Source: Microthrixaceae bacterium
GTDB taxonomy: Bacteria; Actinomycetota; Acidimicrobiia; Acidimicrobiales; Acidimicrobilacustridaceae
NCBI GenBank assembly: GCA_947449015.1
Contig: CANFQA010000007.1
Location: 1 to 64,000 of the forward strand
DNA: 64,000 nucleotides
Direction of reading: 5' to 3'
Shown: positions 52,837 to 56,501 of the stretch, piece by piece
How the letters are laid out: each line of letters opens with the position of its first letter
Numbering within the stretch: position 1 is the first letter of the stretch
The notes under the pieces: model-generated
What the model was told of the DNA's origin: nothing
Seen by the model: the letters and a program-made list of their open reading frames with translations, nothing else
Database searches by the model: none
Program-made: the position numbers and the translations under genes

Positions 52837-53897
52837 GCAATGACCTCCTCGAGGGCGGCGAGGAACCTGTCGTCCTCGTCGGTGGTACCGATGGTGACAC
52901 GCAGACAGCCCTCGAGACGCGGCCATGATGCGCAATTACGAACAAGTACCGATCGCTCGACCAGTCCCGACCAGACGGTGTCACCGTCAATCGAACGAGG
53001 TCGGAACAGCACAAAGTTGGCCCCAGAAGGCCACACTTCGACATCGAGTTGCTGCAATCGAGCGATGAGACGCTCTCGTTCAGCTACCAACCGTGTGACC
53101 CGATCGTTCATCGCATCAACATGGGCAAGCGCCACGGTGCCGGCCAGTTGTTTGAACGCATCGAGGTGGTAGGGCAACACCACCTTCTCCAGTTCAGCCA
53201 CGATCGCTGCGGGGCCCACGAGATAACCGAGACGGGCGGCGGCCATTGACCAGGTTTTCGAAAAAGTGCGGGTTACGACAAGCGGCACATCCTCGCCCAG
53301 CAGCGATGTGGCCGACCAAGGCGCGAACTGTCCATAGGCCTCATCAACCACAAGGAGTCCATCAATCTGTTCGACACCGGCGAGCGTGCTCCGCACCGTG
53401 GCTTCATCGTCAACGACGCCGGTGGGGTTGTTGGGTGAGCACAGAAACGAGATCTCTGGTCGCGCCTCAGAGAGAACCCGGGCAACTTCGGCCGGATCGG
53501 TGGAGAAATCAGCAGCGCGCTCGCCCACCGCGACCGAAGTGCCGGTGATGCGAGCGATGTGGCTGTGCAGCGCATAGGTGGGTTCCCACACCGCTGCAGT
53601 GCGACCCGGTCCGCCGAAGGTGAGCAGTACGGTTTGGAGCACCTCGTTGGAGCCATTGGCCACGAAGATCTGTTCGGGACCAACACCATGGAGCGCTCCA
53701 ATGGCGGCTCGCAGTTCGGTGGCCGCACGATCGGGATAGCGGTTCCACTCGATTGTGGTGACTGCATCATTGAGCGCGTTGGTCCACGCCGTCGGCGGAG
53801 CTTCCGGCGATTCGTTGGTGTTAAGGCGCACCTGCACATCAAGCTGCGGCGAGTGGTAGCCCTCCATGAGTGCGACATCCGAGCGAGGGCGGATCAT
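52833..53897 (-). CDS. hisC: Histidinol-phosphate aminotransferase
   Basis: The 354-residue PLP aminotransferase has LNTNESPEAPP, ANGSNEVLQTVLLTFGGPG, FLCSPNNPTGVV and the PLP-binding Lys in TRTFSKTWSMAAARLGYLVG. The ATG overlaps the hisD stop (ATGA). Confidence 0.95.
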   Translation of the reverse strand: MIRPRSDVALMEGYHSPQLDVQVRLNTNESPEAPPTAWTNALNDAVTTIEWNRYPDRAATELRAAIGALHGVGPEQIFVANGSNEVLQTVLLTFGGPGRTAAVWEPTYALHSHIARITGTSVAVGERAADFSTDPAEVARVLSEARPEISFLCSPNNPTGVVDDEATVRSTLAGVEQIDGLLVVDEAYGQFAPWSATSLLGEDVPLVVTRTFSKTWSMAAARLGYLVGPAAIVAELEKVVLPYHLDAFKQLAGTVALAHVDAMNDRVTRLVAERERLIARLQQLDVEVWPSGANFVLFRPRSIDGDTVWSGLVERSVLVRNCASWPRLEGCLRVTIGTTDEDDRFLAALEEVIA

Positions 53898-55204
53898 TGC
53901 CCACCCTCCCGGTCGAGTGCGCGCTGACGCAGCCGCACGCTTTCTGCGTGTGCGGAAAATCCTTCGGTGTCGGCAAGCTCGGCGACAACCGGCGCGGCGC
54001 GATCGAAACCCTCGCGGGTGAGTTCGATCACATGGACCTGTTTGATGAAATCGTCGACGGTAAGTGCGCTGCCATACCTGGCGGTACCGAAGGTGGGAAG
54101 CACATGGCTGGGACCGGCGACGTAATCGCCGATGGATGCTGGGGCAAGCGGACCGAGGAACACCGCACCGGCATGGCGGACCGCAGACACCAGAGTCTCA
54201 GGATCGGCGGTAATGAGCTCAAGGTGTTCGGGGGCGATGTGATTCACCACGACCATCGCCGCATCGGGACCATCAACCAGCGCACAGAAACCACCGCGGG
54301 TGAATGTTGAGGTGATCTCGGAGTTGCGCGGCGCTTCGGCCACGAGGCGGGTCAGCGCAGCGTCGACGGCATCGGCCACGGCGGGATCCCAAGTGACCAG
54401 CCACGCCAGGCCATCGGGACCGTGCTCTGCCTGCACCATGAGATCGATTGCGACGAAGTCGACCGGGGCGGTGGCATCGGCCACGACCACGATCTCTGAG
54501 GGACCGGCAAAAGCCATTGGCACGCCGACCTGGCCGGCGACCTCACGCTTGGCGAGGGCAACGAAGGCGTTGCCCGGGCCAACAATGACATCGACCGGGC
54601 GGATGGTCTCGGTGCCGTAGGCCATGGCGGCGACGGCCTGTGCGCCGCCGATGGCATAGACCTCATCGACTCCCGCAAGGGCAGCGGCCACCAAGCTGGA
54701 CTGTGCGATGCGTCCGGTTTCACGTGCCGGCGGAACACACAGAACCACTGCGCCCACACCGGCGACGCGGGCCGGAACTGCGGTCATCAGCACCGAGGAT
54801 GGATAGGAACCGCGGCCACCGGGCACATAACAGCCAGCCCGGTCAACCGGCACCGACCGACCGGTGACGGTGATGCCCTGGCGGGTGAGGACATGATCGG
54901 GGCGCAACTGGGCCTCGTGGAATGCAAGTACTGCGTCACGCGCCTCGGTAAGCGCTTCGACCAGTGCCTTCGGAGCCGAGGCCAACGCAGCGGCAAGTTC
55001 ATCCGGACCGACAACGAAGGTGTCGGCGTCGACTCCGTCAAAACGTTCGGTGAACCCGCGCACTGCGGCATCGCCACCAGCGCGCACCTCCGCAATGATC
55101 GATCGCACCGCGTCAATCGGTCCCTCGCCGCCTGGGTCAGGGCGCGGCAGATCGGCGGTGAGTGCAGCGCCTGAGCGGCCCCGGAGATCGAGTCGGTTCA
55201 ACAC
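53894..55204 (-). CDS. hisD: Histidinol dehydrogenase
   Basis: HisD oxidises histidinol twice to histidine with NAD+ and zinc. The 436-residue enzyme has the family signature region from VYAIGGAQAVAAMAYGT through VDVIVGPGNAFVALAKREV and the later GPSEIVVVADATA and APEHLELI. It begins with GTG. A TAGCGT box lies 7 nt upstream, so the message is probably leaderless and without a histidine attenuator. First gene of hisDCBHA. Confidence 0.96.
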   Translation of the reverse strand: MLNRLDLRGRSGAALTADLPRPDPGGEGPIDAVRSIIAEVRAGGDAAVRGFTERFDGVDADTFVVGPDELAAALASAPKALVEALTEARDAVLAFHEAQLRPDHVLTRQGITVTGRSVPVDRAGCYVPGGRGSYPSSVLMTAVPARVAGVGAVVLCVPPARETGRIAQSSLVAAALAGVDEVYAIGGAQAVAAMAYGTETIRPVDVIVGPGNAFVALAKREVAGQVGVPMAFAGPSEIVVVADATAPVDFVAIDLMVQAEHGPDGLAWLVTWDPAVADAVDAALTRLVAEAPRNSEITSTFTRGGFCALVDGPDAAMVVVNHIAPEHLELITADPETLVSAVRHAGAVFLGPLAPASIGDYVAGPSHVLPTFGTARYGSALTVDDFIKQVHVIELTREGFDRAAPVVAELADTEGFSAHAESVRLRQRALDREGGQ

Positions 55205-55211
55205 AAGCCCG

Positions 55212-55217
55212 ACGCTA
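55212..55217 (-). promoter_or_regulatory. -10 element (TAGCGT) for leaderless hisD operon
   Basis: TAGCGT-N7-GTG on the minus strand. It rules out a long attenuator leader for the his operon. Confidence 0.6.
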
Positions 55218-55300: not shown

Positions 55301-55492
55301 TCAGCGCAAGCGGCGGGTGACCACCGAAAGCCGACGATGAGCCATACGCAAGGAGCGTTCGACTTCAAAGAGGTCAGCGGCCAAGGATTCGTCGCCGGCC
55401 TGATGCATGGTCTCGGCGACCCCAGTGATCCGAGCTACCAGATCGTCGAGGTTGGTCACGGCACTGGAGAGCACTGCACGCTGATCGTCCAC
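55301..55492 (-). CDS. Small helical protein of unknown function
   Basis: The 63-residue ORF encodes two amphipathic helices, LSSAVTNLDDLVARITGVAETMH and ADLFEVERSLRMAHRRLSVVTRRL, with a basic C-terminus. It begins with GTG and has neither a good ribosome site nor a full TANNNT box, although CAAACT lies 6 nt before it. Composition and periodicity look coding. It sits between the small RNA candidate and hisD. Function unknown. Confidence 0.5.
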   Translation of the reverse strand: MDDQRAVLSSAVTNLDDLVARITGVAETMHQAGDESLAADLFEVERSLRMAHRRLSVVTRRLR

Positions 55493-55613
55493 CCGGTGAG
55501 TTTGCCAGAGGGGTCGGGGGTAATCGCCGGTCGAAGCTCTCAGAGCCCGTAGCGAGGCATGCTCGAACGCTGAGGATTCAGGATCGGAAGGGCCCTATGA
55601 ACACACATGTGCC
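55493..55613. other. Intergenic segment with nothing recognised
   Basis: Between the end of the small RNA candidate and the 63-residue ORF. No further ORF, repeat or hairpin was recognised here. Confidence 0.5.
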
Positions 55614-55708
55614 CAGAAAGACGTCGACGCCCCCGAAGGGGCGTCGACAAGGCGACACTGGGCGGCGGATCCCAATATGTGTCGCCTAGCTGGGTGGCGG
55701 GACCCAGC
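55614..55708 (-). ncRNA. Putative small RNA: two C-rich-loop hairpins plus terminator
   Basis: On the minus strand a TACGGT box is followed after 7 nt by an RNA of about 95 nt that folds without gaps. Hairpin 1 is GCTGGGT/ACCCAGC with loop CCCGCC, starting at the predicted first base. Hairpin 2 has outer stem GGCGACAC/GTGTCGCC, an ATAT bulge, inner TGGG/CCCA and loop ATCCGCCG. Hairpin 3 is an 11-bp stem (GTCGACGCCCC/GGGGCGTCGAC) capped by TTCG and followed by GTCTTTCT. The layout recalls actinobacterial 6C RNAs, but each C-run is interrupted by G. It lies between nth and the his operon and contains no ORF. Confidence 0.6.
55615..55648 (-). terminator. Intrinsic terminator of the small RNA candidate
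   Basis: A perfect 11-bp GC-rich stem with a TTCG tetraloop in the minus-strand orientation, followed by GTCTTTCT. The strand choice follows from the tetraloop and the T-rich tail. Confidence 0.7.
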
Positions 55709-55715
55709 GAGAGTC

Positions 55716-55721
55716 ACCGTA
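55716..55721 (-). promoter_or_regulatory. -10 element (TACGGT) of the small RNA candidate
   Basis: TACGGT places the first transcribed base at the first paired base of hairpin 1. TTGACG occurs 21 bp further upstream, longer than the usual spacer, so the -35 is uncertain. Confidence 0.5.
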
Positions 55722-55859
55722 GCGCGACCAACATGGGCGAATCGTCAAAACGTCAAAAATGAGCCAGATGGCGTAGGAGACATCAGTCACACCCCCGACT
55801 CGCGTCAGGCTCACCGGCAGGCGCACCTACCGCCCGGCATTCCCATCCGAACTGCGCTG
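55722..55859. other. Intergenic segment between nth and the small RNA promoter
   Basis: Contains two TTGACG hexamers 8 bp apart (about 55743-55756 on the minus strand) that could be -35 elements for the small RNA; otherwise nothing recognised. Confidence 0.4.
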
Positions 55860-56501
55860 TCAGGGCTGCGAGGAAGGACAGAAGTCAGCAAGAACGCATT
55901 CGCTGCAGCGGGGTCGCCGAGCCGGACAGGCCCGACGCCCATGCAGAATCAGCAAAAGACTGAACAGACCGCGCTGCGCGGGCGGGATCATGTCGTTGAG
56001 CACGTACTCGAGCTTCACCGGATCGGTCTCGGTGGATAGACCAAGCCGACCCGACAGACGCCCGACATGGGTATCCACCGGCAGGCCGGGCAGGTCCATG
56101 GCCACGCTGCGAACAACGTTGGCGGTCTTGCGACCACAGCCCGGAATGGTGACCAGGTCCTCCATGGCGGAAGGCACCTCACCATCAAAGCGCTCAACAA
56201 GCGCGTTGGCCATGCCCACAAGTGATCGGGCCTTGTTTCGATAGAAGCCGGTGGAGCGGACGAGTTCTTCAACTTCCTCGATCCGCGCAACGGCAAGGTC
56301 CTCTGGGGACGGGAACCGCGCGAACAGCGCCGGCGTGACCAGATTGACCCGAACATCGGTGCATTGAGCGGACAAAATCGTCGCCGCCAGCAATTCATAC
56401 GGATTGCGGTGATCGAGTTCGCAGTGCGCATCGGGGTACTCGAGCAGAAGACGTTGAAATGTCTCGGTGGCTCTGCCCTTCGGTGATCTCGGTCGTCCCA
56501 T
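55860..56501 (-). CDS. nth: Endonuclease III
   Basis: Nth removes oxidised pyrimidines and nicks abasic sites. The 213-residue enzyme has the helix-hairpin-helix VTIPGCGRKTANVVRS with catalytic Lys, VDTHVGRLSGRLG with catalytic Asp, and the 4Fe-4S loop with four cysteines CPARRPRCSECVLADFC. TAGGGT is 9 nt before the ATG. It is divergent from mshD across 43 bp. Confidence 0.95.
   Translation of the reverse strand: MGRPRSPKGRATETFQRLLLEYPDAHCELDHRNPYELLAATILSAQCTDVRVNLVTPALFARFPSPEDLAVARIEEVEELVRSTGFYRNKARSLVGMANALVERFDGEVPSAMEDLVTIPGCGRKTANVVRSVAMDLPGLPVDTHVGRLSGRLGLSTETDPVKLEYVLNDMIPPAQRGLFSLLLILHGRRACPARRPRCSECVLADFCPSSQP

Follow-up and report, generated by a model that had tools for sequence, protein, structure and literature searches.

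What is encoded on the minus strand of the spacer between the endonuclease III gene nth and the his operon of a Microthrixaceae bacterium, and what would its product do? In the window (the whole 64,000-nt stretch analysed, positions 1 to 64,000 of contig CANFQA010000007.1), a candidate small RNA had been proposed here from the letters of the sequence, with a TACGGT -10 box, two hairpins with C-rich loops and an 11-bp hairpin capped by UUCG and followed by a T-rich tail. The minus strand does contain all of these elements, and the layout of the locus is as follows.

55716..55721, minus strand: TACGGT, -10 box of the promoter of the small RNA (sequence and conservation)
55615..55708, minus strand: small RNA gene of about 95 nt, predicted start at 55708-55709 and end at about 55615 (held-out covariance-model match and compensatory changes)
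55689..55708, minus strand: hairpin 1, 7 bp, with loop CCCGCC at 55701-55696
55651..55686, minus strand: hairpin 2, with outer stem GGCGACAC/GTGTCGCC, inner stem UGGG/CCCA and loop AUCCGCCG at 55670-55663
55673-55660, minus strand: core of hairpin 2, GGGAUCCGCCGCCC, near-invariant
55615..55648, minus strand: intrinsic terminator, an 11-bp hairpin at 55648-55623 with a UUCG loop, then GTCTTTCT; U-rich tail GUCUUUCU

Folding, promoter and terminator

The RNA stretch folds with an energy of -58.1 kcal/mol, compared with -34.6 +/- 3.6 kcal/mol for shuffled sequences (z -6.6; 0 of 200 shuffles as stable). This stability is owed mainly to the terminator, which reaches a z of -5.8 when hairpins are folded singly, against -1.7 for hairpin 1 and -2.1 for hairpin 2. 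The first two hairpins are thus unremarkable by energy alone, and their case is established by conservation. The terminator is the sole match of a terminator scan over 1.4 kb, and its tail keeps at least three U residues in 82 of 95 homologues.

At the other end of the gene, 64 of 70 distinct homologous loci have a TANNNT hexamer where the -10 box is expected, compared with 4, 2 and 0 for three control windows of equal width. At the RNA promoter the scan accepts no sigma-70 -35/-10 pair, so that only the -10 box is supported there. Upstream of this box lie two TTGACG repeats (55743-55756, minus strand), parts of which recur in close relatives. At 21 nt from the -10 box, the nearer repeat is too far away for an ordinary -35 element and is possibly an activator site.

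No family of Rfam 15 reaches its cut-off anywhere in the 64-kb window, and a low-threshold scan of the surroundings of the RNA (55400-55900) returned nothing meaningful.

Conservation of the structure and the loops

The stems were examined in two alignments. In the structure-blind one, 31 homologues, excluding the window and its closest kin, were aligned with MAFFT and the three-hairpin structure was written on afterwards: 96.5% of the cells are paired and 18 of the 30 pairs show double changes, while none of 500 shuffles was as good and slid controls gave 36-57% paired cells. The larger alignment, of 95 sequences, has 95.9% of its cells paired and a covariation score of 0.53 (0.17 when shuffled, below 0.09 when slid); as it was fitted to the model, the structure-blind count is the cleaner test. 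The original prediction had named a lack of stem conservation and covariation in relatives as one result that would speak against it, and what was found in the 95 sequences is compensatory change at 29 of the 30 pairs. The terminator shows double changes among homologues at all 11 of its pairs. Across the 95 homologues, G-U cells outnumber A-C cells by 89 to 15, an excess that fits an RNA on the minus strand.

While the stems vary, the loops hardly do. The motif CCGCC is found in loop 2 of all 95 homologues and in loop 1 of 88, and loop 2 reads AUCCGCCG in 79, although these counts are inflated, partly by ascertainment, because the model itself includes the loops. Two relatives that were found by their position near the small open reading frame described below (L286 and L288) have altered loops. 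In three others (L298-L300) the core of hairpin 2 is kept and hairpin 1 has diverged; CCGCC has been lost from loop 1 in a few genomes (L298, L299), so the two loops are not always needed.

Distribution of the RNA

A search at the DNA level gave one strong match per genome in nearly all members of the same genus and the same family, and some further families of the order had such matches too; the genome under study has one copy. A covariance model built from the 31 homologues, with the window and its closest kin left out, gives the RNA a score of 89 bits (E 2.1e-14) over 55710-55615; the next-best match in the window scores 16 bits. Among the genomes of the order Acidimicrobiales, the model matches 199 of 397, in 122 of 204 genera, and nearly always in single copy. 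Named carriers include Candidatus Microthrix UBA4742, Aquihabitans sp. G128 and Ilumatobacter.

Outside Acidimicrobiales, a sample of the phylum yielded no convincing model match. Four loci from outside the order (L127-L130, 28-31 bits) were not accepted as members; it is chiefly their terminator hairpin that fits the model, and they are without the loops. Matches in other phyla that came from a DNA pattern scan of all genomes were not confirmed by the model, nor was a pattern match on a viral contig (L249), and phage records contain no match to the RNA. All confirmed matches with order- or class-level names are Acidimicrobiales or Acidimicrobiia, and the few deposited names that disagree with Acidimicrobiales look like mislabelled MAGs. 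Two public MAG contigs with the RNA locus, L184 (CAMAYJ010000022.1) and L217 (JAGWYK010000038.1), are deposited as Bifidobacterium breve and Acidobacteria, respectively; both names look wrong.

Where the model gives no match, the RNA has either diverged, as in L271, L283, L286 and L288, or is absent, as in L270, L272, L279, L280 and L284, where the gap from nth to the small open reading frame is only about 30-100 nt.

The held-out model match, the compensatory changes, the conserved -10 box and terminator and the lack of any Rfam match strongly support the proposal of a new small RNA. That this is a genuine RNA gene, representing a real, new and order-wide family, we regard as close to certain.

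A separate gene beside nth and the his operon

Is the RNA a gene in its own right or an appendage of its neighbours? These are arranged on the minus strand as listed here.

55860..56501, minus strand: nth, endonuclease III, upstream of the RNA (TIGR01083, E 1.8e-69)
55301..55492, minus strand: small open reading frame of 63 aa, helical-looking, between the RNA and hisD and here on the same strand as the RNA
55212..55217, minus strand: TAGCGT, -10 box of hisD's own leaderless promoter (sequence and conservation)
53894..55204, minus strand: hisD, first gene of the his operon (TIGR00069, E 4e-141)

The usual order is RlmN, GNAT (here TIGR03448, mycothiol synthase), nth, RNA, 63-aa frame, hisD, hisC and hisB. 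The RNA had been placed between nth and the his operon; nth is indeed upstream, whereas direct adjacency to his does not hold, as the 63-aa frame (55301-55492) intervenes. This frame, for which Pfam and NCBIfam have no match, is itself found order-wide (332 of 397 genomes). At 73 of the 77 loci it was found close to the RNA, in 55 of these 73 on the opposite strand, and its strand relative to the RNA varies between genera. It was considered as an obligate partner of the RNA and rejected, each occurring without the other: the frame without the RNA in L270, L272, L279, L280 and L284, the RNA without the frame in L254 and L256.

In most loci the RNA precedes hisD, or hisC if hisD is missing, in the same orientation, and it ends in a terminator, all of which would suit a leader or attenuator that acts in cis on the his operon. 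Yet hisD has a promoter of its own: in 46 of 55 loci a TANNNT hexamer precedes the start of hisD by 5-10 nt, compared with 2, 4 and 1 in control windows, and the hisD mRNA appears to be leaderless and to arise from there. A small gene stands between the two, mostly on the opposite strand (the 55 of 73 loci above), the RNA is inverted relative to hisD in at least two genomes (L164 and L119), each of its three stems is conserved separately and no alternative structure was seen, and Rfam gives no match to a T-box or any other leader. A second reading would reduce the RNA to the terminator or another 3'-end element of nth, or to a palindrome acting at the DNA level as a repeat or a protein-binding site. 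It draws on the many genomes in which the RNA follows nth on the same strand, but the RNA persists at a number of loci where nth was not found beside it, has its own conserved -10 box and occurs once per genome. Moreover, G-U is tolerated far more than A-C on the RNA strand, and termination has no need of two further hairpins with near-invariant loops. Evidence from promoters, orientation and synteny led us to reject both the his leader and the nth element or palindrome, either of which we consider extremely improbable.

In eight loci (L052, L120, L123, L143, L211, L222, L237 and L240) hisD was not found and the RNA precedes hisC. The hisD promoter, the strand of the small frame, the neighbours not found at some loci and the inversions of the RNA indicate a gene distinct from those around it that has kept its position. 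With its own promoter and intrinsic terminator, both supported by comparative evidence, and with a conserved secondary structure, the RNA has the features of an independent small RNA of the trans-acting type. At the level of comparative sequence analysis, the gene, its strand, structure, promoter and terminator, the conservation of its loops and its independence from its neighbours are thus demonstrated.

Relation to 6C and other C-rich-loop RNAs

Which known RNAs does this one resemble? Like the actinobacterial 6C/B11 RNAs (RF01066), it is an intergenic RNA of about 95 nt in which two tandem hairpins with C-rich loops are followed by a terminator, within the 6C range of about 75-95 nt. Unlike them, with their loops of six C, it carries CCCGCC and AUCCGCCG, without a run of six C, has been found only in Acidimicrobiales and does not match the covariance model: the 6C model, run as the original prediction had proposed, gave nothing at E<=10 in 55400-55900 and nothing at E<=1 in its own genome (gathering cut-off 47 bits).

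Nor is it the 6C-type RNA of its genome, which has a separate locus with CCCCCC loops. There, a three-hairpin RNA with a terminator lies on the minus strand (G000:C23:22704-22830; L349) and is related by sequence to a 6C-like locus, L079, in another genome, G012 (42.8 bits, below gathering). Other members of the genus have a similar RNA (L346-L348, L310-L325), and RNAs of this kind match 6C (L079) or ar14 (L084, L313) weakly, below the Rfam cut-offs. At E<=1, nothing in Rfam matches the copy in the genome under study, which makes 'CCCCCC-loop RNA' a safer name than '6C'. The two RNAs share the host group, the tandem hairpins with C-rich loops and the terminator, and they differ in locus, in that the CCCCCC-loop RNA has three loops of the UCCCCCC type and in its weak match to 6C.

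The layout, the size and the actinobacterial host would all be expected of a genuine 6C RNA that had diverged strongly. Against this descent stand the missing RF01066 match in the region and the genome, the lack of a C6 loop and the distinct CCCCCC-loop locus in the same genome, and we judge it very unlikely. The suggestion of a divergent relative of 6C is not supported, and membership of the 6C family was rejected on the evidence of the model and the loops. The alternative suggestion, an analogue, survives in so far as the layout is shared, and it may offer the best working mechanism.

The alphaproteobacterial ar14 RNAs (RF02344) and other anti-Shine-Dalgarno RNAs with CCUCC loops likewise expose C-rich loops on hairpins and end in a terminator. 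Their CCUCC is complementary to the Shine-Dalgarno sequence GGAGG, whereas the CCGCC found here mismatches it, and RF02344 does not match the RNA, whose loops contain no CCUCC. Pairing with GGAGG-like sites, one of two options put forward originally, is unlikely given this central mismatch; the other, pairing with GGCGG sites, is taken up below.

Possible mode of action

The 6C/B11 RNAs use their C-rich loops to pair with G-rich stretches close to ribosome-binding sites (PMC10470900; PMC8628891), and repression is mediated by the loops, either of which is enough for one target (PMC10470900). On the strength of this similar architecture, pairing of the loops with GGCGG(G/A) sites in mRNAs is the likeliest mechanism for the CCGCC-loop RNA. 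The RNA, of about 95 nt, would be an independent, trans-acting one, made from its own promoter, ended by its intrinsic terminator and conserved across Acidimicrobiales. Its two hairpins, each with a GG/CC stem closing the loop, would expose unpaired (Y)CCGCC as ready-made seeds. These would pair with complementary GGCGGG or GGCGGA in target mRNAs, most likely in their 5' regions, and the pairing would repress translation or alter the stability of the targets. The presence of two hairpins would provide redundancy. We infer transcription, action by base-pairing and the pairing partners from these comparisons. A trans-acting CCGCC-loop small RNA is, taken as a whole, the explanation we find rather probable, with base-pairing as its least certain step; that the RNA is a regulator of some kind is, judging from its conservation, very probable.

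Are complementary sites enriched where they would be expected? Pairing with GGCGG sites is possible, yet GGCGGG and GGCGGA show no excess near translation starts, occurring there in 4 and 6 genes of 360, with middling ranks among permuted k-mers, in a crude test that used rough gene calls on 435 kb of the genome (about a fifth of it) and that a few specific targets would escape. The same lack of excess would be expected if mRNA pairing were not the main activity and the two (GG)YCCGCC(R)(CC) hairpins were paired sites for an RNA-binding protein, with the RNA serving as a sponge or scaffold, perhaps for a protein of the KH type. Near-invariant loops with loop-closing G-C pairs (GG/CC, GGG/CCC), present in two copies per RNA, agree with this, as does the core of hairpin 2, which is kept even where hairpin 1 has diverged; the 14-nt core and the loop-closing GG/CC are conserved more tightly than pairing seeds usually need, and a protein ligand could account for it. 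No candidate protein has emerged, and the nearby small frame is not a consistent companion. A protein ligand is a serious rival to base-pairing, albeit one that we consider unlikely.

It is possible, although we put it forward only tentatively, that this is a hitherto undescribed, order-wide core regulatory RNA in which the two CCGCC loops act as a fixed seed for a regulon of GGCGG(G/A) sites, alongside the C6-loop RNA of the same cell as a parallel system with a different seed.

Significance

The literature searched contains no report of this RNA, nor of small RNAs in Acidimicrobiia. The alignment and the covariance model can be used to make an Rfam family, and the RNA widens the class of C-rich-loop RNAs beyond those with C6 and CCUCC loops. 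Acidimicrobiales are widespread, mostly uncultured bacteria of soil and water, Candidatus Microthrix, Ilumatobacter and Aquihabitans among them. Its presence in about half of the sampled genomes of this order, in one place and with near-invariant loops, strongly recommends the RNA as a candidate core regulator of these bacteria.
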